Shown here: piece after piece, positions 1 through 10,308 of the stretch
Layout: the number at the start of each line of letters is the position of its first letter
Position numbering within the stretch: the first letter of the stretch is position 1
Assembly (NCBI GenBank): GCA_024743015.1
Contig: JANSXJ010000105.1
Location: 1 to 10,308 of the forward strand
Length of the DNA stretch: 10,308 nt
DNA from: Hyphomonas sp.
GTDB lineage: Bacteria > Pseudomonadota > Alphaproteobacteria > Caulobacterales > Hyphomonadaceae
Reading direction: 5' to 3'
Position numbers and translations under genes: made by a program
The notes under the pieces: generated by a model
Seen by the model: the letters and a program-made list of their open reading frames with translations, nothing else
Database searches by the model: none
Told to the model about the DNA's origin: nothing

Positions 1-1875
1 ATGCTTAGCAGAAGACGACTTCTCGAACACACAGCCTGGGGCGGACTCGCTTTCGGCGCAGCCGGACTAGACCCTGCCTGGGCTTTGCCGTCATCGGAGG
101 GCAATCTCGGCATCGCCAGTTTATCAGGCACCAAGTTCGATCTTTCGATCGGAAAATTCCCGGTTCGTATCAATGGTAGGGCGGCGCAAGCCATTGGCGT
201 CAATGGGTCGCTACCCGCCCCGTTGATCCGTTTTCGTCAAGGCGACAACATTACGCTGAACGTGAGGAACGGACTTGATGTCGATAGCTCGATCCATTGG
301 CACGGCCTGCTTGTACCGTTTCAGATGGACGGCGTACCCGGCGTGACGTTTCCCGGCATCAAACCGGGAGAGACTTTTAAATACGAATTCGCCGTCCCGC
401 AAAGCGGCACCTACTGGTATCATTCCCATTCCGGCCTTCAGGAACAAGTCGGCCATTACGGGCCAATGATCATCGATCCAAAGCATGATGATCCGGTGGA
501 GTATGACCGCGAATACGTATTGATGCTCGGCGATTGGACGTATGACAATCCGCATCATCTTTTCGCCAAGCTGAAGAAGAATGCAGAGAGCCTGAACTTC
601 AACCAGCCGACCATGGGCGAATTTTTAGCTGATGCGCGAGAAAAGGGCCTCGGCGCAGCTATGAGTGAGCGCGCCATGTGGGGCGCCATGCGCATGTCGC
701 CGCGCGATATCGCTGACGTGACCGGCGCGACTTACACCTATGTCATTAATGGTCATGCCACAGCGGACAATTGGAATGCACTATTTCGTCCGGGTGAGCG
801 CGTCCGTCTGCGGATCATCAATGCGGCGGCCATGACGCTGTTCAATGTTCGCATTCCGGGGTTGCCCATGACCATAGTCAACGCGGACGGCCTCAATGTG
901 CAACCTTTGGAGGTCGATGAGTTTCAAATGGGCGTTGCCGAAACGTATGATGTGATCATCGAGCCAAAAGAAGATCGCGCCTATGCCTTTGTGGCTGAAT
1001 CGATTGATCGCTCCGGGCAAGTCGTCGCATCGATCGCACCGCGCCCCGGTATGCGCGCAAGTGAACCCGCGCTGAGAGCTGTCCCAACGCTCACGATGAA
1101 AGATATGGGTATGGATCACAGCGGGATGGGCGGCATGGATCATGGCGAAATGGATCACGGTCAGATGGCTGGATCAATGATGAACCATGAGGGCATGGAC
1201 CACATGATGGGACCGAATGTCGTAGAAGCCTCAATAGAACGAGGACCCGGCGTCGCCAATGTCGCCGCCATGCCACTGTCGCGCCTCGATGAACCCGGCA
1301 TTGGACTGGAAGAGGTCGCGCATCGAACTCTCCGGTACAGCCAGCTTCGAAGTCTCGATCCTAATCCGGACACACGAGCGCCGGGCCGAGAGGTGGTTGT
1401 CCACCTCACAAGCAACATGGAGCGTTACATGTGGTCATTTGACGGCGTGAAATTCTCCGAGGTCACAAAGCCCATCATCTTCCACGAGGGTGAGCGTGTG
1501 CGTCTGACAATGGTCAATAACACAATGATGCCACATCCCATCCACTTGCACGGCATGTTCTTCGATGTCGTCAATGGCGGCGGCGATCATAAACCGAGAA
1601 AGCACACCATCACAGTGAAGCCGGGTGAACGGCTATCGGTTGATGTTAGCGCCGATCATGTCGGAGACTGGGCGTTCCATTGTCATCTTATGTACCACAT
1701 GCATGCAGGGATGATGCAGGTTGTCTCGGTGATGCCGAATGATGGATCGCACACCCCAATGATGGATCATGAGGGCATGGATCACGGGAACATGGATCAT
1801 GGGGACATGGAGCATGGCGACATGGGACGTGGCGATATGGATCACGGATCGATGAAGCATGGGGAGGACGAATAA
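1..1875 (+). CDS. copA: CopA-family periplasmic multicopper oxidase
   Basis: This is a copper-resistance multicopper oxidase, expected to oxidise Cu(+) to Cu(2+) and bind copper in the periplasm. Residues 1-29 form a Tat signal: SRRRLLE, a weakly hydrophobic stretch, then AWA. All four copper-ligand blocks are present: HWHG (99-102), WYHSHSG (139-145), HPIHLHG (512-518) and HCHLMYHMHAGM (560-571), arranged as three cupredoxin domains. Two Met/His-rich segments, residues 366-406 and 586-624, are likely extra copper-binding sites. The length of 624 residues is normal for the family. The ATG is the first base of the window, so an earlier start cannot be excluded, but the twin-arginine lies at residues 4-5 as expected for a Tat signal. 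The stop codon overlaps the copB start by one base. The name copA here follows Pseudomonas usage and is shared with the unrelated ATPase downstream. Confidence 0.95.
   Translation: MLSRRRLLEHTAWGGLAFGAAGLDPAWALPSSEGNLGIASLSGTKFDLSIGKFPVRINGRAAQAIGVNGSLPAPLIRFRQGDNITLNVRNGLDVDSSIHWHGLLVPFQMDGVPGVTFPGIKPGETFKYEFAVPQSGTYWYHSHSGLQEQVGHYGPMIIDPKHDDPVEYDREYVLMLGDWTYDNPHHLFAKLKKNAESLNFNQPTMGEFLADAREKGLGAAMSERAMWGAMRMSPRDIADVTGATYTYVINGHATADNWNALFRPGERVRLRIINAAAMTLFNVRIPGLPMTIVNADGLNVQPLEVDEFQMGVAETYDVIIEPKEDRAYAFVAESIDRSGQVVASIAPRPGMRASEPALRAVPTLTMKDMGMDHSGMGGMDHGEMDHGQMAGSMMNHEGMDHMMGPNVVEASIERGPGVANVAAMPLSRLDEPGIGLEEVAHRTLRYSQLRSLDPNPDTRAPGREVVVHLTSNMERYMWSFDGVKFSEVTKPIIFHEGERVRLTMVNNTMMPHPIHLHGMFFDVVNGGGDHKPRKHTITVKPGERLSVDVSADHVGDWAFHCHLMYHMHAGMMQVVSVMPNDGSHTPMMDHEGMDHGNMDHGDMEHGDMGRGDMDHGSMKHGEDE
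1096..1218 (+). repeat. internal Met/His-rich copper-binding segment in the oxidase
   Basis: Residues 366-406 of the oxidase are built from short units such as MDHSGM, MDHGEM, MDHGQM and MNHEGM. Met and His are the usual soft and borderline ligands for Cu(+) and Cu(2+) in periplasmic copper proteins. The segment sits between the second and third cupredoxin domains, where CopA proteins commonly carry such a loop. Copper binding is inferred from composition. Confidence 0.8.
1756..1872 (+). repeat. C-terminal M-D-H-G-x pentapeptide repeats in the oxidase
   Basis: Residues 586-624 repeat a five-residue unit (MDHEG, MDHGN, MDHGD, MEHGD, MGRGD, MDHGS, MKHG). The DNA has a matching 15-base period of the form ATGGATCATGGGGAC. 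The tail ends the protein and abuts the copB start. A tail like this could hold several copper ions, and the DNA repeat could change length by slippage. Both statements are inference from composition. Confidence 0.8.
1863..1867 (+). promoter_or_regulatory. ribosome binding site for copB
   Basis: GGAGG lies seven bases before the ATG at 1875, inside the last codons of the oxidase gene. It supports the overlapping TAATG start and suggests translational coupling of copA and copB. Confidence 0.7.
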
Positions 1876-2687
1876 TGAGACTGTCTTACACATTTGGCGC
1901 GCTCGTCGCGTTCACAGCATTTGCGGTAGTGCCTGGTTACGCTGACGCCCAGGAAGAGCAGCAAAGCCAGAATCCACCCTGGTCTATGGCCGATAAGTAT
2001 TGGGGCGCAGAAGAAATGGAAGCGTCTCGCAAGGCCGTTCAAGCCGCTAACGGAGCACAATCCAACTATTTCTTCATGGCCGATCGATTGGAAATTCAAT
2101 CGGGTGATGAGGAGGATACCGTCCTTTGGGACCTTCAAGGTTGGTATGGCGGCGATATCAACAAGCTTTGGGTCAAATCCGAGGGGGATTACTCGCTCGA
2201 CGCAAACGAGATCGAGGATGCTGAGCTTCAAGTTCTGTGGTCTCGTGCGGTATCGACCTATTTCGATGTTCAAACGGGCATTCGCTACGATATTGAACCC
2301 GATGGCCTCGCCCACGGCGTGGTGGGCGTACAGGGGCTCGCACCATATTGGTTCGAGGTTGATGCGGCAGCTTTCCTGAGCGAAAAGGGCGATGTCACGG
2401 CCCGCATCGAAGCGGAATACGACATGTTGTTTACACAGCGCCTCGTATTGCAACCGCGCGTCGAATTGGAGTTGTCAGCGCAAGATATTCCCGAGCGCGA
2501 GATTGGCTCCGGTGTGACCGGCTTGGATGCTGGCCTGCGTCTTCGATATGAAATCAAGCGCGAGTTTGCGCCCTATGTCGGCGTTGAATGGCAAAGCGCC
2601 TTTGGCGACACAGCTGATTTCATCGAAGCTGAAGGTGGGAGTAAAGACCAGACGGTCTTTGTTCTTGGCCTCCGCGCTTGGTTCTAG
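1875..2687 (+). CDS. copB: CopB-family outer membrane copper resistance protein
   Basis: CopB is the outer-membrane partner of the CopA oxidase and is thought to bind or sequester copper at the cell surface. The 270-residue protein starts with a Sec signal peptide (hydrophobic residues 5-20, likely cleavage after the ADA at 23-25). The mature part opens with a NPPWSMADKYWG segment typical of CopB. The rest alternates in a beta-strand pattern and ends in LGLRAWF, a terminal Phe expected of outer-membrane beta-barrels. The start overlaps the oxidase stop by one base and has a GGAGG at 1863-1867. Unlike many CopB proteins it lacks a Met/His-rich N-terminal region; that type of sequence is found instead on the tail of the preceding oxidase. 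Family assignment is firm; the exact function of CopB is unsettled in general. Confidence 0.9.
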   Translation: MRLSYTFGALVAFTAFAVVPGYADAQEEQQSQNPPWSMADKYWGAEEMEASRKAVQAANGAQSNYFFMADRLEIQSGDEEDTVLWDLQGWYGGDINKLWVKSEGDYSLDANEIEDAELQVLWSRAVSTYFDVQTGIRYDIEPDGLAHGVVGVQGLAPYWFEVDAAAFLSEKGDVTARIEAEYDMLFTQRLVLQPRVELELSAQDIPEREIGSGVTGLDAGLRLRYEIKREFAPYVGVEWQSAFGDTADFIEAEGGSKDQTVFVLGLRAWF

Positions 2688-2691
2688 GAGG
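2686..2691 (+). promoter_or_regulatory. strong ribosome binding site overlapping the copB stop
   Basis: A perfect AGGAGG starts inside the TAG stop of copB (2685-2687) and lies five bases before the ATG at 2697. This fixes the start of the DUF2231 gene and suggests efficient translation from the same message. Confidence 0.8.
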
Positions 2692-2696
2692 CGGCA

Positions 2697-3665
2697 ATGT
2701 CAAATCTAATTGAGCCGAACCTGCATCCAGTTCTCGTTCACTTCTCATATGCACTTAGCATCACCGCTGTGGTTGCATATTTGGGGGCACGTTTTGCCCC
2801 CAATGTGCGGTGGCGAAACACCTTAGCGCCTGCGGCGGACTGGATGCTGGCCTTTGGCGTGATCGCCATTCTCGCGACGGTGGCAGCTGGCTTCCAGGCT
2901 TACTATTCCGTGGCCCATGATGGGCCATCGCATGAAGCCATGACGACGCACAGAAATTGGGCTGTGCCATCATCCATTTTGCTCCTGATCCTCGCGAGTT
3001 GGCGGTGGTGGCGGCGTGCCTCATCGCCGTCGATACTCTTCACAATTGCGGTTCTAGCTGCCGCAGTCCCGCTCACCACAACCGCGTGGTGGGGTGGAAA
3101 GCTCGTTTATGGTTACGGTGTCGGAGTATCGAGCTTACCATCGGTATCAGGCGATGGGCATGATCACGCTCATGGCGATGAAGATCATGCCACAGTGCCA
3201 GCCGCTGAAGAAATGCACGATCCTGCAGACGGTCATCATGAAAGCGATATCCAAGCAGAGATCGCGCCAATTGTTGCCGGCTCTCCAGAGGGCGTTGTCG
3301 CGGCATTCTCCGCTGCGTTGAAACGCGGGGACGCAGATGTCGTGGAATCTCTGATGTCTCCACAAGCCATCATCGCAGAGGGCGGCGGGGCTGAGCGCTC
3401 ATTCGAGGAATATGCGGGCCACCATATGCCGTCCGACATGGCGTTTACCGCAGCGGTGGATTTCTCGCTCAAAAAACAAGACGTGATCGCGGGCTCCGAG
3501 ATCGCAGTTGTGATTTCTGAATCGCAAATTCACGGCACCTTCAGGGGCGAGCCTATTCACAGCGGGATGATGGAAACCATGACGCTGCGCCGGTCCGAAG
3601 ATAGTTGGCTCATCGAGCATATTCATTGGTCTTCCGCGCCGATTGAGGGCGATCATGAGCATTGA
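2697..3665 (+). CDS. DUF2231 membrane protein fused to an NTF2-like domain via a His-rich linker
   Basis: This 322-residue protein has two parts. Residues 1-145 resemble the DUF2231 membrane family: four helices near 15-33, 46-66, 88-103 and 111-128, with conserved-looking histidines in HPVLVHF (H10, H15) and in the loop after helix 2 (H74, H79, H85). Residues 153-183 are an acidic, His-rich linker (HDHAHGDEDH, then DGHHESD) likely to bind metal. Residues 195-313 look like an NTF2/SnoaL/DUF4440-type cone domain, opening with SPEGVVAAFSAALKRGD and closing with SWLIEHIHWSS, and are also rich in His. The end (GDHEH) is again His-bearing. DUF2231 has no agreed biochemical role. Position in a copper operon and the His content suggest copper or heme-copper handling in the membrane, which is inference. 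Its stop lies 11 bases inside the next gene. Confidence 0.8.
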   Translation: MSNLIEPNLHPVLVHFSYALSITAVVAYLGARFAPNVRWRNTLAPAADWMLAFGVIAILATVAAGFQAYYSVAHDGPSHEAMTTHRNWAVPSSILLLILASWRWWRRASSPSILFTIAVLAAAVPLTTTAWWGGKLVYGYGVGVSSLPSVSGDGHDHAHGDEDHATVPAAEEMHDPADGHHESDIQAEIAPIVAGSPEGVVAAFSAALKRGDADVVESLMSPQAIIAEGGGAERSFEEYAGHHMPSDMAFTAAVDFSLKKQDVIAGSEIAVVISESQIHGTFRGEPIHSGMMETMTLRRSEDSWLIEHIHWSSAPIEGDHEH

Positions 3666-4329
3666 CGCACAGTCGCACACACCGCCCTTGGGTCATGGAG
3701 CTCTGACACCATTTTATGATATCGTGATCGCGCTGATGACGCGCGAGAGGTATTGGCGCGAACGGTTGATCAAGCGGCTCGCGCCTCAACCTGGCGATGT
3801 TATTCTTGATGTTGGGTCAGGCACAGGGAGTCTCGCGGTGGCGCTCCACAAAGCGGAGCCAAGGGCGGTCTATGTTGGGATTGATCCGGACGCGGAGGCA
3901 GTGGCGCGCGCCCGGCATAAGAACAAAAAAGCTGGAAGTTCCGCTCAATTCGTGCGTGGATTTCTGAGCGAAGACGCCATAGCAGCGTATGCTCACCCCA
4001 ACAAAGTCGTTTCCAGCTTGGTCTTGCATCAAGTCCCGCTCGAAGAGAAGAAACGAATCTTGCGGCAGATGTATGAGGCCGTTGAGCCGGGCGGGTTGGT
4101 GTGTATCGCAGACTACGGGCAGCAGCGGTCTTGGCGGATGCGCCTCGCTTTCCGAAGGACGGTGCAACAACTGGACGGGGTCGAAGATACACAACCCAAT
4201 GCCGATGGAATACTTGCGCCGCTGATGGCCGACGCCGGTTTGGCTGATGTTGACGAAGCAGAGCGCATCAACACGATGACAGGTACGATCAGCCTTTACG
4301 TTGGGCACAAACCATTGGGTCGGTGCTGA
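3655..4329 (+). CDS. class I SAM-dependent methyltransferase
   Basis: This is a 224-residue cytoplasmic Rossmann-fold methyltransferase. The SAM-binding motif I is LDVGSGTG (51-58). Strand 2 ends in the acidic GIDPDA (D77, expected to hold the SAM ribose). A later PGGLVCIADYG (145-155) is typical of UbiE/Methyltransf_25-type enzymes. The substrate is unknown. I chose ATG 3655 because GAGGG at 3645-3649 is well spaced before it; a TTG at 3643 in the same frame is less likely. The gene overlaps the preceding one by 11 bases and the following one by one base (TGATG), so it is embedded in the copper operon. Similar small methyltransferases occur beside metal-resistance genes, but no role in copper resistance is established that I can name. 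Confidence 0.85.
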   Translation: MSIDAQSHTPPLGHGALTPFYDIVIALMTRERYWRERLIKRLAPQPGDVILDVGSGTGSLAVALHKAEPRAVYVGIDPDAEAVARARHKNKKAGSSAQFVRGFLSEDAIAAYAHPNKVVSSLVLHQVPLEEKKRILRQMYEAVEPGGLVCIADYGQQRSWRMRLAFRRTVQQLDGVEDTQPNADGILAPLMADAGLADVDEAERINTMTGTISLYVGHKPLGRC

Positions 4330-5657
4330 TGAACCGCGCCAGCTCGTATGATAAGGGTAGCCTAAGCCTTGCCGGTACAGTGGCTATGGGGACAGGCGTT
4401 ATGATTGGGGCGGGCATCTTCGCGCTGACCGGGCAGGTGGCCGATCTGGCAGGGCCGCTATTTCCTGTTGCTTTTTTGTTGGCCGCGATCATCAGCGGAT
4501 TTAGCGCATATACCTATATCAAGATGTCGAACAAATACCCGTCTGCGGGCGGGATAGGCATGATCCTACACAAAGCTTATGGGCATTCCGTTATGACCGG
4601 GGCGAGCGCGCTGCTGATGGCTTTTTCCATGGTCATCAATGAAAGCCTGGTTGCACGCACCTTTGGCACGTACACGCTGCAACTTTTTGACGTTTCTGCT
4701 GCCAGCTCACTCGTTCCACTGCTTGCGGTGGGACTGATTGTTCTGGCGTTCCTAATCAACATCGCCGGAAACTCTGTGATCGGAACAATCTCAAAAATTA
4801 CGGCAAGCCTAAAAATCGGTGGCATACTAGTCTTTGCAGGTGTCGCTTTGTGGGCGTCCGGGTTTTCTTTCGAAGCGGCGAGTACACCCGATGCGCAATC
4901 GGGGACGGTGACTGGTTTCTTCGCGGGCGTCGCAATCGCGATCCTTGCTTATAAGGGTTTCACGACCATCACAAACAGCGGCGATGAAGTAGAAAACCCG
5001 ACAAAAAATGTTGGCCGGGCGATCATGATTTCGCTCGCAATATGCCTCGTGGTTTACCTGGCGGTGGCGTTTGCGGTCGGGTCTTCGCTTTCCATTGAGG
5101 AGATCGCGGCGGCGAGGGATTTTGCACTGGCCGAAGCCTCACGTCCTGCGCTTGGGAATACCGGTGTGATTTTCACAGTCATCATCGCCATTATCGCAAC
5201 TTCGTCTGGATTGCTGGCCAGTATCTTCGCCGTTTCGCGCATGCTGGCCATGCTAACGGATATGGACCTAATCCCGCATAAACATTTTGGCATGCCCGGT
5301 GACATTCAACGTCACACGCTCGTTTATACGGTCGTGCTAGCATCCGTGCTTGCTGTTTTCTTCGATCTTGGCCGAATTGCCTCACTTGGCGCAATTTTCT
5401 ACCTAGTCATGGATATTGCCATCCACTGGGGGGTGTTGCGCCACCTTCGGGATGAGGTCGGGGCAAATCCGGCGATTCTCATTTCAGCAATTGTGTTTGA
5501 TACGGTGGCGCTCGGCGCGTTCATCTTGATTAAGTTGGCAAGCGATCCCCTCATTATTTGGATCGCGTTCGGCGCTATCATTCTGATCTTTGGACTTGAA
5601 ATCCTGTTTCTTCGTACGCGGAAAACCGCAGCCGAAAAGCAGGCGCACAAGCATTAA
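4329..5657 (+). CDS. APC-superfamily amino acid/polyamine-type permease
   Basis: This 442-residue inner-membrane transporter has about 11-12 hydrophobic helices. Helix 1 carries the unwound APC signature GAGIFALTG (27-35). The family loop FTTITNSGDEVENPTKNVG (211-229) and SRMLAMLTDMDLIP (303-316) are also present, matching the AA_permease_2 group. Substrate cannot be read from the sequence; amino acids or amines are usual for the family. I placed the start at ATG 4329, which overlaps the methyltransferase stop as TGATG; a GTG at 4323 would add two residues. No good Shine-Dalgarno is visible, so translation probably depends on re-initiation after the upstream gene. The C-terminus is basic with HKH as the last residues. 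The gene closes the first copper transcription unit. Family assignment is firm; a link to copper is contextual only. Confidence 0.88.
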   Translation: MNRASSYDKGSLSLAGTVAMGTGVMIGAGIFALTGQVADLAGPLFPVAFLLAAIISGFSAYTYIKMSNKYPSAGGIGMILHKAYGHSVMTGASALLMAFSMVINESLVARTFGTYTLQLFDVSAASSLVPLLAVGLIVLAFLINIAGNSVIGTISKITASLKIGGILVFAGVALWASGFSFEAASTPDAQSGTVTGFFAGVAIAILAYKGFTTITNSGDEVENPTKNVGRAIMISLAICLVVYLAVAFAVGSSLSIEEIAAARDFALAEASRPALGNTGVIFTVIIAIIATSSGLLASIFAVSRMLAMLTDMDLIPHKHFGMPGDIQRHTLVYTVVLASVLAVFFDLGRIASLGAIFYLVMDIAIHWGVLRHLRDEVGANPAILISAIVFDTVALGAFILIKLASDPLIIWIAFGAIILIFGLEILFLRTRKTAAEKQAHKH

Positions 5658-5667
5658 GGGTTAGACT

Positions 5668-5696
5668 TGAATATACCCCATAGGGGTATTAGGTTT
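5668..5696 (+). promoter_or_regulatory. candidate promoter for the small membrane protein and ATPase genes
   Basis: A TTGAAT at 5668-5673 resembles a -35 box, and a weak TAGGTT at 5691-5696 sits 17 bases later as a possible -10. The 17-base gap is exactly the palindrome at 5674-5690. The -10 is poor, and an alternative TATTAG at 5688-5693 would have too short a spacer, so the promoter call is tentative. Confidence 0.4.
5674..5690 (+). promoter_or_regulatory. CsoR/RcnR-family (DUF156) operator palindrome
   Basis: ATACCCCATAGGGGTAT is a perfect inverted repeat: seven-base arms around a three-base centre. The A/T-flanked C4/G4 tract is the known shape of operators bound by CsoR/RcnR/FrmR-family repressors, which release DNA when they bind Cu(+) or other effectors. 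It lies 93 bases before the start of the small gene that precedes the copper ATPase, so copper-induced derepression of that unit is the natural reading. The regulator itself is not in this window. Confidence 0.65.
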
Positions 5697-5704
5697 ATGG
5701 AATT

Positions 5705-5725
5705 GGTCGCGTCTTTACCGCGACC
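5705..5725 (+). promoter_or_regulatory. leader hairpin 1
   Basis: GGTCGCG (5705-5711) and CGCGACC (5719-5725) form a perfect seven-base stem with a seven-base loop. It lies just downstream of the putative operator, so it would be in the 5' leader of the ATPase message. No T-run follows, so it is not an obvious terminator. It could equally be a protein-binding dyad. Confidence 0.45.
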
Positions 5726-5732
5726 TCAACCT

Positions 5733-5759
5733 GAGCGCCACCCGAAGAATTGGGCGCTC
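5733..5759 (+). promoter_or_regulatory. leader hairpin 2
   Basis: GAGCGCC (5733-5739) and GGCGCTC (5753-5759) form a perfect seven-base stem with a 13-base loop, followed by TTAACAG and not by a T-run. It is the second dyad between the operator and the Shine-Dalgarno at 5771. Whether it acts as a leader structure or as a weak terminator of read-through from the upstream unit cannot be decided from sequence. Confidence 0.4.
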
Positions 5760-5770
5760 TTAACAGTGAG

Positions 5771-5776
5771 AAGGAG
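5771..5776 (+). promoter_or_regulatory. ribosome binding site fixing the small gene start
   Basis: AAGGAG lies six bases before ATG 5783. This favours that start over the upstream in-frame ATG at 5750, which would fall inside leader hairpin 2. Confidence 0.7.
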
Positions 5777-5782
5777 CAAGAT

Positions 5783-6037
5783 ATGCGACTCATTCCAACT
5801 GGCCATGCGCTATCGCTATTTCTGGTCATCATGTTTTCAATTTGCATTGGCTGGGGCCTTGTAACTCCCGCAAGCCTGCACATGCATGCCGCGTGGGAGC
5901 TGTTGCTGCCAGGCTTTGAGTTTATCTCTATCCCTGCCTTCGTTCTCGGATTGGTCGAGTCCTACGCCTATGGCTGGTTCGCGGCGCTGATCATCGTGCC
6001 GCTCTACAATTTCTTCGATCGAAAGAAGGCTGTGTAA
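5783..6037 (+). CDS. small two-helix membrane protein (DUF5676-like)
   Basis: This 84-residue protein has two hydrophobic helices, about residues 9-28 and 50-75, ending in [11 protein letters not shown]. The pattern of a first helix, a short loop with PGFEF, then a helix closing with a Tyr/Asn/Phe motif resembles the DUF5676 family of small membrane proteins; I hold this only moderately. The loop between helices contains SLHMHAAW (H33, M34, H35), a possible metal site. It starts the second transcription unit under the CsoR-type operator and is followed after two bases by the copper ATPase, so it probably works with it, for example as an accessory subunit or metal-delivery factor. That function is inference. 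The basic C-terminus suggests a cytoplasmic tail. Confidence 0.75.
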
Positions 6038-6039
6038 TC

Positions 6040-8241
6040 ATGTCCCACGATCACGCTCACTGTCATGATGATGCAGAGGCCCCTGAGGGCACTGAATATG
6101 ACCTTGTTCCGCACGGCTTCACAGGTACTGTTTACACGTGTCCGATGCATCCACAGGTGAGGGACACGCGCAATAGTGGGTGTCCGATTTGCGGTATGAC
6201 CTTGGAGCCAGAGAGCGTGGTCGTGGGCGAAGAAGACACGAGCGAACTCGATAGCATGACGAAGCGCTTTTGGGTTGGAGCTATCCTATCAGTACCGCTC
6301 CTGATCATCGCGATGGGGGACTTGCTGCCTGGCAATCCGATCGCATCAGCGATCGATCCTAGCTGGGGCAATTGGCTCCAACTTGCTCTAGCCGCGCCGG
6401 TTATCCTCTGGGGTGGCGCGCCCTTTTTTGCGCGCGGGGTTCAATCCGTGCGCACGATGAATCTCAACATGTTCACTCTGATTGCATTGGGGGTGGGCGT
6501 TGCATTTCTCTACTCGCTTGTCGCAACTGCCGTCCCGCAAATCTTCCCGACACAGTTTCGCGGCGAGACGGGGGCAGTCGCGATCTATTTCGAAGCAGCT
6601 GCGGTGATCACAACTTTGGTGCTACTTGGCCAAGTTTTGGAGCTGCGAGCCCGAAGCCGAACGTCCGGCGCAATTCGCGCACTCCTAGAACTCGCCCCGC
6701 CCACAGCGCGGCGAATTCTAGATAACGGCACCGAAGAAGAAGTTTCTATTGATGAGGTAAAAGTAGGCGAACGGCTTCGCGTGCGCCCCGGCGAGAAAAT
6801 CCCCGTGGACGGCGAGATCGTCGAAGGTCGATCAAGCGTCGATGAATCGATGATTACAGGCGAACCCATCCCAGTTCAAAAAGAGCATGGGGCTCTTGTA
6901 ACGGGCGGCACGGTCAACGGAACCGGCAGTCTCATCATGCGCGCAACACGCGTGGGCGACGACATGATGTTGTCCCAAATTGTCCAAATGGTCGCCGAGG
7001 CGCAAAGAAGCCGCGCGCCGATTCAGCGCCTGGTTGATACAGTATCAGGATATTTTGTACCTGCGGTCATTGTGGTCTCGATTGTGACGTTTGGAGTCTG
7101 GGCCATGTTTGGGCCGGAGCCTGCCATGGCGTTTGCGATCGTCAATGCGGTTGCCGTTCTGATCATCGCCTGTCCATGCGCTTTGGGGCTCGCCACGTCT
7201 ATGTCGATCATGGTCGGCACCGGCAAAGGGGCTCAAAGCGGGATTTTGATCAAAAACGCGGAAGCGCTCGAAACCTTTGAGCAGGTTGATACGATCGTTG
7301 TCGACAAGACTGGGACGCTCACCGAGGGCAAACCTAAACTCATGTTGGTGGAGCCATCAGATGGCTTCGACGAGCTTGATCTGTTGGCGCTGGCAGCCTC
7401 TGTCGAAGTCGCAAGCGAACATCCACTGGCTGAGGCAATTGTGAACGGGGCTGAAGAGCGCGGCGCGTCGTTTGATGCCGCAGACGGTTTTTCATCGATC
7501 ACGGGCGAAGGTGCTCAAGCCATCGTGAGAGGCAAGGCGGTTGCGATTGGTAATGAGAAAATGATGCGCCGCATTGGTGCATTCTCAGATCAACTCGCCG
7601 GGGATGCCCTAACCCACCGCGCTGAAGGGCAGACAGTCATGTTCCTGGCCGTTGACAGCCAAGCCGCCGGATTAATCGGTGTGGCTGACCCGATCAAAGC
7701 CAGCACACCTGATGCCATAAACAATCTTCACGCCGCAGCGCTCAAAGTGGTTATGTTGACTGGCGATAGTCTTGGCACAGCTAACGCGGTTGCCCGTAAA
7801 ATTGGTATTGATGTCGTTCATGCTGACGTGTCGCCAGAGGATAAGAACCGCATCATCAAGGAACTTCAAGATGCGGGTTCCGTCGTGGCTATGTGCGGCG
7901 ATGGCATCAATGATGCGCCCGCTTTGGCGCAAGCTGATATCGGGATCGCCATGGGAACAGGCACCGATGTGGCCATGGAAAGCGCAGGTGTCACTCTGAT
8001 CAGGGGCGACCTGACCGGTGTTGCCAAAGCGAGAACGCTCAGCAAAGCGACGATGCGCAACATCCGAGAAAATCTGTTTTTCGCCTTCGTCTATAATGCA
8101 CTCGGAGTGCCGCTCGCAGCGGGCGTTCTCTATCCCGTCTTCGGGATCTTGCTGAGTCCCATGATTGCGGCAGCAGCGATGAGCCTGTCATCGTTCTCGG
8201 TCATCACTAACTCTCTCCGGTTAAGGCAAGTCAGAATATAG
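6040..8241 (+). CDS. copA: Cu(+)-exporting P1B-1-type ATPase
   Basis: This inner-membrane pump couples ATP hydrolysis to export of Cu(+) from the cytoplasm. The 733-residue sequence has a His-rich start (HDHAHCHDD), then a heavy-metal-binding zinc-ribbon-like domain, CPMHP (34-38) with CPICGM (48-53), in place of the usual HMA CxxC domain. Membrane helices follow, then the actuator TGEP (273-276), the metal-site CPC (378-380), the phosphorylated Asp in DKTGT (D422), the HP motif in SEHPLAE (H461), and the hinge GDGINDAP (620-627). [11 protein letters not shown] (681-691) and MSLSS (714-718) match the YN and MxxSS signatures of Cu(+)-selective P1B-1 pumps. The start is two bases after the small gene, with AAGG at 6026-6029. 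It is unrelated to the oxidase that shares the name copA. No clear terminator follows. Confidence 0.95.
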
Positions 8242-8557
8242 CGACTTCCACACGCGCGATCGGAACTTCATTTCCAGATCCATTCCGTGGTTGGTGGGCG
8301 ATGCAAGTGCGTGCTGATCGGTAGAAGCGGCACCTAGACCACACCAACGTTGGAGTAGCGCGGAACCTTTGATAGCTCGGGGTGCTAGCGGGTCGCAACG
8401 GTGCGGCTCAAGTTGCTCGTCGGATAGGTATGGAGGCTCACACGAAACTCACACGCAGGATAACTCAAAATAAGGTAGGATACCGTTTGAAAGAATAGCT
8501 AAGGCTTCCTATTGCCCTGTATTTATTGGTTAATGTGGTGCGCCATACTTATTCTTT
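8242..8557. other. non-coding stretch at the island end
   Basis: I see no convincing gene on either strand in these 316 bases; stops are frequent in all frames that I followed. No T-tailed terminator hairpin is evident after the ATPase. The stretch holds a ten-base palindrome CCAACGTTGG (8344-8353) and a short direct repeat at 8437-8455, and ends at the tRNA fragment. It reads like the junction sequence of an integrated element. Confidence 0.5.
8437..8455 (+). repeat. short direct repeat CTCACACG x2
   Basis: CTCACACG at 8437-8444 is repeated at 8448-8455 after AAA, giving an 11-base period, about one DNA helical turn. It lies about 100 bases inside the tRNA fragment, on the island side. This spacing would suit arm-type binding sites of a tyrosine integrase, but two copies of eight bases could be chance. 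Confidence 0.35.
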
Positions 8558-8605
8558 CGGATTGAATATCCGCGTGTCGGTGGTTCAAATCCGCCCCCGG
8601 GCACC
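8558..8605 (+). other. 3' fragment of tRNA-Phe(GAA), putative attachment site
   Basis: These 48 bases match the 3' part of a tRNA-Phe. They comprise the anticodon stem from position 28 (CGGA, 8558-8561), the loop TTGAATA with anticodon GAA (8564-8566), the stem TCCGC, the variable loop GTGTC, the T-arm GGTGG-TTCAAAT-CCGCC (8579-8595), the acceptor strand CCCGGGC (8596-8602), discriminator A and CC. The 5' half is absent: no D-arm or GCCCGGG acceptor strand lies upstream, and base 8557 no longer pairs. Position 37 is T (8567) where A is usual. A tRNA 3' end without its 5' half is the classic duplicate att site left by tyrosine-integrase islands. An intact tRNA-Phe should therefore lie upstream of the window. 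The match is made from remembered tRNA-Phe sequences. Confidence 0.8.
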
Positions 8606-8695
8606 TTTTCTTCCGTCAATGAGTCCAAACGATAGTCATGCTCTGGCCGCAGGGGTGATGGCGCGGTTGCGCGCTCGTTCCCGCCCTATCACAGC
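8606..8695. other. short gap between att site and protease gene
   Basis: These 90 bases hold no gene that I can support. They contain a GC-rich inverted repeat, GCGCG (8661-8665) and CGCGC (8670-8674), downstream of the protease stop on the - strand. It has no T-run, so it is at best a weak terminator candidate. Confidence 0.3.
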
Positions 8696-10308
8696 CTATT
8701 CGACATCCTCGCCTGTCACACCGAGGCGGGGCAGGGGTTTTGGGGTCAGCTCCGGGATCGGTTCGGCGGCGATCTTGTCGGCAAGGTAGGCCAGGGCGCG
8801 CGAGAGTTGCGCATCCTCTCCGGAATAGGTGGCTCTTGGCGGGTTGATGACCTCAATGTCTGGTGAGACGCCGCGTCCTTCAATCAGCCAGCGGCCATCG
8901 GCGCCATATTGGGCGAACTCGGCGATGCGGGCCTGGCCGCGGTCGCTTAGCGGGTTGCGGTCCGACAGCCAGATTCCAGCACCCGCCGTCTGCGTACCAA
9001 TCGTCGGGCCGAGGTCCAGTGCCTTGATCCCTGCAGCGAAAGTCTCGCCATCGGAATAAGTGCCTTCATTGATGAGGACGGTTAGATGGCCGCGGAAGGT
9101 TTGCTGCATGTTCGTTGTCGCTGGGCCACCGGCCGGAGACTTCCAGAACGCCCAGGCCTGACGAAGCAACGTGCTCAGGATGATGCTGTCGACATTGCCG
9201 CCACTATTACCGCGAACATCGATGATCAGGCCGGACTTGTCGTGATGCTCGTAGAAATCGCGGGCGAAGCTCGCCAGGTCACCCGACCCCATAGCGCGCA
9301 GGTGCATATAGCCGATCTCCCCGCCGGATTGCTCGGCGACGCGTGCGCGGTTGCGCTCCACCCAATCACGATAACGAAGCATGGACGTACGCCGGGCCGT
9401 CATCGGCTCAACGATTTCCTGGCGGGCGTCGCGCCCACGTAAGAGGTCTAGCAGAACTTGCTCACCCGCTTTCATGGTCAGCGCATTTGCGAGCTCGCTT
9501 TGCGTCCGGACCGGCGTGCCATCCACGGCGCGAATGATGTCACCGACCGCCACGTCTATGCCGGGTTTGTGAAGTGTGCCGAGCGTATCGATTCGGTCAG
9601 CTTCTCCGGAATAGATGCCCGTAATTTCCAACCCATTTGATCGCGCTGTGTAGGTTGCGCCAAGGAAGCTTGGCTCACCGCTTTCGGCGTCTTCGGGCTG
9701 ATCACCGCCGCGAACCTGACTGTGCAGAATTCCGAGTTCGGCCGCCATCTGGCGCAGCAAATCGTTCACTTCAAAGCGGTGCCCAATCCGGTTACGCAAG
9801 GGGACGTATCGCTCGCGCACCGCGTTCCAATCGACGCCGCGCAGGTTCGGGTCATAGGCGAAGTCACGATGCAGACGCCAGGCATCCAGGACCAGTTGCC
9901 GCCACTCATCCCGTGGATCGATTTTGAGTTTCCAGTCAGACAGACGAATGGTTTGGTTGCTGGTGTCGGATGGATAGTCCTTGTCGGAGGGCACAATGAC
10001 CAGTTTCGGGTTTCGCCCGTTGCCCGTCTGCACGAACAGCTTCTTGCCGTCCGCGGAGAGTTCGAAATTCTGGACGTTGGACGCGTAGTCGGAAAGCTCG
10101 GGATCTTCTTGAGTGAACCGCACGCGCTTGAGCGAGGCACTGCCGTCGACAGAGACAACGAAAAGATGCTTCGCCGTTGCCGCCAGGGCTGCAAAATTCC
10201 CGGCCTCGACGGGTACCTGATAGAGGCGCGACGACAAGCCGTTAAAGTCGATATCGGGTTCGCCGCTCTCATCGCCGTTTCCGTTCTCATCAGACTCTTT
10301 GTCACCTG
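8696..10308 (-). CDS. tricorn-type S41 serine protease, C-terminal half (partial)
   Basis: The frame stays open to the window edge, so about 537 C-terminal residues of a protein usually near 1,050-1,100 are seen; the N-terminus is outside. In order: an acidic low-complexity linker (10238-10306), the last propeller-like repeats, a tricorn C1 domain (DPRDEWRQLVLDAWRLHRDF), a PDZ domain, and the S41 catalytic core. By analogy with tricorn, the catalytic residues are His in LGILHSQV (9722-9724), Ser in TYSDGETF (9053-9055) with the following Asp near the oxyanion hole, and Glu in IEGRGVSPD (8879-8881). RGNSGGN precedes the nucleophile region. Tricorn-type proteases degrade peptides; bacterial homologues are often secreted or periplasmic. 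Convergent with the copper genes and beyond the att site, it is probably native chromosome. A TTG at 10237 is not the true start. Confidence 0.9.
   Translation of the reverse strand, partial: GDKESDENGNGDESGEPDIDFNGLSSRLYQVPVEAGNFAALAATAKHLFVVSVDGSASLKRVRFTQEDPELSDYASNVQNFELSADGKKLFVQTGNGRNPKLVIVPSDKDYPSDTSNQTIRLSDWKLKIDPRDEWRQLVLDAWRLHRDFAYDPNLRGVDWNAVRERYVPLRNRIGHRFEVNDLLRQMAAELGILHSQVRGGDQPEDAESGEPSFLGATYTARSNGLEITGIYSGEADRIDTLGTLHKPGIDVAVGDIIRAVDGTPVRTQSELANALTMKAGEQVLLDLLRGRDARQEIVEPMTARRTSMLRYRDWVERNRARVAEQSGGEIGYMHLRAMGSGDLASFARDFYEHHDKSGLIIDVRGNSGGNVDSIILSTLLRQAWAFWKSPAGGPATTNMQQTFRGHLTVLINEGTYSDGETFAAGIKALDLGPTIGTQTAGAGIWLSDRNPLSDRGQARIAEFAQYGADGRWLIEGRGVSPDIEVINPPRATYSGEDAQLSRALAYLADKIAAEPIPELTPKPLPRLGVTGEDVE

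Follow-up and report, generated by a model that had tools for sequence, protein, structure and literature searches.

A displaced 3' part of tRNA-Phe beside copper resistance genes probably marks the far end of an integrative element in Hyphomonas sp.

The window analysed here is contig C89 in its entirety (10,308 bp), one of the 585 contigs of a 3.88-Mb assembly of Hyphomonas sp. Most of it is taken up by genes on the forward strand that we read as cargo. The contig starts at the start codon of the gene for CopA, a copper resistance multicopper oxidase (1..1875; NCBIfam TIGR01480 over its cut-off). This is followed by genes for the copper resistance protein CopB (1875..2687; Pfam CopB, E 1.5e-91), a membrane protein in which Pfam recognises DUF2231 and SnoaL-like domains (2697..3665), a class I methyltransferase (3658..4329; Pfam Methyltransf_25; we chose this start, the ORF list giving 3643), an APC-type permease (4323..5657; Pfam AA_permease_2), a small protein with two TM segments (5750..6037; DUF5676, below cut-off) and a heavy-metal (copper) P-type ATPase with an HMBD (6040..8241; Pfam E1-E2_ATPase and HMBD; NCBIfam TIGR01511 and TIGR01525 over cut-off). 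As a copper block this content is ordinary, with CopB, a multicopper oxidase of CopA type and a copper-type P-ATPase alongside four genes that are smaller or less certain. Beyond a spacer (8242..8557) lies a 48-base piece of a tRNA gene (8558..8605, +), then a second spacer (8606..8695) and the gene of a tricorn-type S41 protease, which is cut by the contig end (8696..10306, -; Pfam Tricorn_C1, PDZ_Tricorn and Peptidase_S41). GC content is 55.1 % in window 1-8557 vs 60.3 % after 8606. No plasmid donor of the copper block was recognised, since none of the 4116 plasmid records matching parts of window 1-8000 did so over 80 % of its length; the best-ranked records reached 39 % coverage at 66.9 % identity, and 19 records fell in the 80-90 % identity band. 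A search of the family with window 1-8300, in which two candidate stretches were scored per genome, placed 74 of 104 other genomes among the matches listed, each with single genes that are roughly 65-75 % identical.

The 48 bases correspond to nt 27-74 of tRNA-Phe(GAA) and agree with the intact gene of the same assembly (G000:C123:1285-1359, -) at 47/48 positions (98 %), with an E value of 5.2e-17 that excludes a chance match. The piece begins one base inside the 5' strand of the anticodon stem. Its single mismatch, at window 8567 (T for A), immediately follows the anticodon on the 3' side, and at its 3' boundary CACC is followed by TTTT in place of the final A of the intact gene. The 5' half of the tRNA is absent beside it. 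ARAGORN called no tRNA in the window, and Rfam returned zero matches at E <= 10 for window 8400-8700, so that a whole-tRNA model cannot recognise the fragment. The sequence-only reading of this DNA, which had described a 48-base 3' piece of tRNA-Phe(GAA) lacking its 5' half between the copper and tricorn genes, is thus borne out. When tRNA-Phe was used as query at E <= 0.001, exactly two matches were obtained in the assembly, the intact gene on C123 and the fragment, and no comparable 3' fragment was detected in any of 40 relatives at the same threshold. That reading had named as evidence against itself a fragment without a second copy, or one shared by relatives that lack an adjacent insertion; we found the second copy and, among the 40 relatives, none with such a fragment. 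One same-order relative has a tRNA-Phe 5' piece (G028:C27:60177-60232; nt 1-55, 93 %) in addition to an intact gene.

Contig C123 carries the one intact tRNA-Phe(gaa) found in the assembly, as identified by ARAGORN, and next to it a tyrosine integrase gene (143-1270; 375 aa; Pfam Phage_integrase, E 1e-14) that points at the tRNA and ends 14 bp from its 3' end. The prediction had been an intact tRNA-Phe with these 48 bases beside an integrase, and both are present in the predicted orientation. On the far side of the tRNA is a PLP-dependent decarboxylase gene, and beyond it a gene that we take to be radA-like. A decarboxylase homolog occurs on that side, within about 1.3 kb of tRNA-Phe, in all 24 same-genus relatives examined, and that side of C123 is therefore host DNA. 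On C123, GC content is 51.0 % to one side of the tRNA vs 58.9 % to the other. The orientations of the fragment and the intact tRNA-Phe fit each other; the ends themselves sit on separate contigs, with the empty site and the repeats described below as links between them. Phage and plasmid sources for the integrase were rejected, all 60 matching phage records and all 17 matching plasmid records being less than 60 % identical to it.

An uninterrupted site is present in a relative of the same genus (G024), where tRNA-Phe (C7:73073-73147) adjoins a tricorn gene (71442-72980) that is 94 % identical to the one in the window. An empty site of this kind was what the sequence-only reading had looked to for a decision. 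Both host flanks and the tRNA align to this locus, with 938 of 1076 columns identical and 2 gap columns, and the alignment pairs spacer 8606..8695 with the one that follows tRNA-Phe in G024, so we regard the former as having originally followed the host tRNA. In BLAST comparisons, C123 matches the locus along its host side and through the tRNA, ending one base past it, and the match of the right part of the window begins exactly at 8558. Window 1-8557, C497, C370 and C180 (the last three being contigs discussed below) gave zero matches to the empty locus, and the element part of C123 gave one, of 37 bp (84 %, E 4e-4), which we take to be chance. An integrase relative was identified at tRNA-Phe in just one of the 24 same-genus relatives (G014), a count in which three loci (L069, L072 and L073) were covered for 0.4 to 3.1 kb past the tRNA. 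In two of the relatives, G006 (L072:3141-3215) and G001 (L073:375-449), the sequence after tRNA-Phe lacks the initial TT seen in most others, so other insertions may sit there; the flanks compared are short.

A second link between C123 and C89, independent of the tRNA fragment, is provided by short repeats. At its 3' end the integrase gene contains two adjacent head-to-tail 11-bp repeats, and a corresponding pair occurs in the window at 8436..8457 (+), within the spacer and about 100 bp before the fragment. Window 8438-8457 matches the integrase pair at 19 of 20 bases, the one difference falling in a single repeat unit. With up to 2 mismatches allowed, this 20-mer was found at three places only in 29 genomes of the genus, namely C123, C89 and the end of the G014 integrase gene. 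A chance origin of the window pair is excluded, as none of 200 shuffled windows contained a match with <= 3 mismatches. From their position, and by analogy with mycobacteriophages, we presume that these repeats are arm-type integrase sites, the window pair belonging to attR. The attP cores of cluster K mycobacteriophages are described in PMC3203893 as flanked by pairs of 11-bp arm-type repeats, whose versions may track the integrase N-terminus. Our pairs likewise flank the core and vary in version among relatives. They differ from the cluster K arrangement in that the pair on the integrase side is part of the coding sequence of the integrase and the pairs at both ends have the same orientation, and their arm role is putative.

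We consider it about 90 % probable that an integrative element, measuring some 46 kb or more, is inserted at tRNA-Phe and that window 1-8605 forms its far end. In the course of such an insertion, the tyrosine integrase would have recombined an attP carrying a tRNA-Phe 3' half with the host tRNA-Phe gene, strand exchange presumably taking place in the anticodon stem-loop and the N-terminal domain of the integrase probably binding the 11-bp repeats. At attL, on C123, the tRNA would have been completed again by the 3' copy of the element, and the 3' half belonging to the host would have been displaced to the far end, where it now forms the attR core (8558-8605) beside the tricorn gene that once followed tRNA-Phe. 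Since both ends, the integrase and the empty site of a relative were all found, this is a well-known kind of event that is cleanly documented here.

The interior of the element was pieced together from three further contigs with the help of G014 (Henriciella sp. DT_48, JABSQA010000093.1), in which 12 kb that include mobilization genes come after an integrase at tRNA-Phe. C497 has an exact 20-bp end overlap with C123 and is collinear with the G014 element, and C370 is collinear with the next part of it. The ends of C497 and C370 correspond to sites 64 bases apart on the G014 contig, and this collinearity suggests that C497 is joined to C370. The latter encodes a relaxase (PF03432), MobC (PF05713), a T4SS coupling protein of VirD4/TraG type and a resolvase; against the NCBIfam MOBP model the relaxase scores 154 bits (E 6.7e-45), below the cut-off of 250. 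A weak 25-nt match on C370, from the assembly search that gave the intact tRNA gene, was set aside, as ARAGORN calls no tRNA there. An exact 62-bp end overlap connects C370 to C180, which contains an RND efflux set, a pump of the Cation_efflux family, a CsoR-type repressor and a CusF protein. The cusF stop lies 16 nt before the end of C180, and C89 starts at the copA start codon. Homologs of the genes at the end of C180 lie upstream of copA at 4 of the 10 relative loci examined: homologs of a 150-aa C180 ORF are so placed in G051, G012 and G050, with E values from 5e-4 to 2e-9 at about 25 % identity, and a csoR homolog in G082. Because of this gene order, the copper block of C89 probably follows directly after C180. 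An end overlap between C180 and C89 was not found, and the first 20 bases of C89 had neither a second occurrence in the assembly nor a neighbour contig. An ORF at the end of C180 had zero matches among plasmids. Without gaps, the pieces sum to about 46.6 kb. Two proteins on element contigs are possible defence genes by prediction: one with a pPIWI-associating nuclease domain (PF18165) and a weak PADLOC Aga_Nuclease match, the other an NYN protein that matches PADLOC HEC-09 (L154:4625-5623 and L107:5052-5831 as a pair of loci).

The unbridged step from C180 to C89 leaves room for a composite island, in which the tRNA-Phe junctions record one integration while the copper block arrived by a separate event and was never one historic unit with the mobilization module. 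In keeping with this, the sister element of G014 showed no copper block (2 of 34 candidates scored), and GC content is 50.5-51.6 % on C497 and C370 vs 55.1 % in the copper block. We nevertheless think a composite origin unlikely. The assembly holds a single fragment and, outside the integrase gene, a single repeat pair, and there is therefore no second attR that would mark a tandem element; moreover, C180 already carries metal-efflux genes up to its end, and homologs of its end genes stand upstream of copA at 4 of the 10 relative loci. We accordingly retain a single insertion as the preferred reading, and the view that the copper genes stand at the edge of a tRNA-gene genomic island, already taken by the sequence-only reading, is upheld by the empty site, the integrase, the repeat pairs and the overlaps between contig ends.

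The complete tRNA-Phe and the 3' fragment of the same gene occur together in this genome, and the tyrosine integrase lies inside the island, adjoining the tRNA. On its sequence the element classifies as a tRNA-gene island of the anticodon-centred class, as Islander (PMC4383910) defines tRNA-gene genomic islands and, as class A, anticodon-centred attachment. Like Islander islands, it has an intact tRNA at one end, a 3' fragment at the other, in an orientation that would fit one replicon with the island in between, and a tyrosine integrase inside, and as in class A the fragment begins in the anticodon stem. Unlike them, its ends are on different contigs and are paired also by the presumed arm-type repeats of the integrase. 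As to mobility, the element has its own integration enzyme, and its own relaxase and MobC on C370 are tied to it by collinearity with G014. Pfam revealed no mating-pore families among the proteins scanned, which were 12 from C370, 15 from C180, 2 from C497, 2 from the element part of C123 and 7 from the window; integrative and mobilizable element (IME) is therefore the best label, as a prediction of mobility from gene content. The element would then be transferred through the mating pore of a helper.

A full ICE, with mating-pore genes missing from the broken assembly, would fit the presence of an own VirD4/TraG-type coupling protein, the two gaps in the element and an assembly that is 87.5 % complete, but in view of the Pfam result on these proteins it appears improbable. 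In having an integrase at one end and a relaxase and MobC of its own, with no mating-pore gene among the proteins scanned, the element resembles the IMEs of PMC5704250; it differs in having a VirD4-type coupling protein of its own in company with a MOBP-like relaxase. PMC5704250 (2017) treats canonical IMEs, with a relaxase and without a coupling protein, as then undescribed in Proteobacteria, and mentions IMEs of Streptococcus that carry VirD4 and have a relaxase of the MobC family. Among the papers listed on tRNA-Phe copper islands and Hyphomonadaceae IMEs, the element was not named in titles and the beginnings of abstracts, and those listed for Henriciella genomic islands and integrases dealt with casposons.

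The insertion might be real and yet old, an immobile relic that has lost the ability to excise; the mismatch in the attR core, the loss of the final A of the tRNA and the single-base difference in one repeat unit are what such decay could leave. Identities as high as 47/48 and 19/20, and an integrase gene that is an open 375-aa frame 82 % identical to that of G014, make us doubt it. Finally, a misjoin of unrelated contigs at the 48-bp repeat, for which the shortness of the repeat and the 585 contigs could be cited, is highly implausible. The fragment shows a mismatch and an altered end that the intact gene does not share, the tRNA is where homology to the empty site begins or ends on either side, and the repeat pair links the contigs independently. 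Even a swap at the 48-bp repeat would presuppose an empty site and a circular form.

For the insertion at tRNA-Phe, related elements offer comparison. The G014 element shares with ours the tRNA-Phe site, an integrase 82 % identical, the same 11-bp pair (its 20-mer found with up to 2 mismatches) and collinear mobilization genes, and differs in that neither a copper block (no match at E <= 1e-20, with 2 of 34 first-look candidates scored) nor an attR (sought with tRNA-Phe and the repeat 20-mer) was found. Nine stretches from relatives were searched for fragments, four of them shorter than 14 kb, and two contained one. Both are tRNA-Met elements, one in G024 (contig C11: tRNA-Met 269230-269306, 47-nt fragment 298597-298643) and one in G081 (contig C59: tRNA-Met 53601-53677, 48-nt fragment 24841-24888), and each has, some 122 bp ahead of its fragment, a repeat pair that agrees with its own integrase-side pair at 19/22 positions in G024 and 17/22 in G081. 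Neither had a match to our relaxase or coupling protein at E <= 1e-8. For a tRNA-Met element in G015, neither a fragment nor a second pair was detected in the surrounding 56.8 kb. The missing relaxase and coupling-protein matches, like the missing G014 copper block and attR, bear on the inner structure and leave the attR call at 8558-8605 unaffected. The 29-kb tRNA-Met element of G024 (C11:269230-298643; L115, L134) lies in the same genome as the empty tRNA-Phe site, and its cargo includes a copper-type ATPase 72 % identical to that of the window and CsoR and RND pump homologs, so metal resistance may recur as cargo of this integrase family. We also observed that the frames of four tRNA-Met integrases (L087, L088, L089 and L103; 397-404 aa, with a shared tail) extend into sequence antisense to the 3' half of the tRNA, and the gene therefore crosses the attachment site, as PMC4383910 mentions for the Mx8 and SSV integrases. 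A literature search on integrases crossing attP found none.

A tandem 11-bp pair (>= 9/11) was detected at 12 of 14 integrase loci, the misses being G055 and G065, and at 15 of 19 when five more distant loci were added (further misses G022 and G043b); these counts leave out G080 and G087, whose integrases are cut by contig ends. In the last 130 nt of each integrase frame alone, the pair was present in 11 of the 19; the count of 15 takes the four Met integrases from the wider locus search, since their frames extend into the tRNA. For the 12 positive loci, an equal score was reached by 1 to 12 of 500 random 140-bp windows, some of which may overlap the site. A Phe, Thr, Met or Ala tRNA adjoins the integrase at 10 of the 14 loci, the exceptions being G065, G092, G055 and G052, and a tree built from 19 integrases places each of the Phe, Met and Ala groups on one branch. 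Beside tRNA-Thr in G052 (C34; L112), an identical 22-bp repeat pair occurs at 238732 and again at 240226, 1.5 kb apart, which may be what is left of a former integrase copy, or else a tandem insertion.

We tentatively suggest, as a reading that may well prove wrong, that these elements form a Hyphomonadaceae lineage with a head-to-tail 11-bp pair of arm sites inside the integrase gene or at its 3' coding end, in a branch-specific version matched at the far end, and with its own tRNA (Phe, Thr, Met or Ala) per branch, the Phe member being a proteobacterial IME that brings VirD4 with a MOBP-like relaxase and so replaces that of the helper. If this were true, a change of tRNA target would go along with a change of arm specificity, and part of the integrase C-terminal tail would be dictated by the binding site. 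Matched repeat pairs also offer a way to pair island ends across contigs in broken assemblies, where a search within one replicon fails. For this Hyphomonas, what was a 48-base relic becomes the end of a delimited and putatively mobile element, and the copper genes would be acquired DNA with defined ends, whose excision, empty site and transfer are therefore testable.
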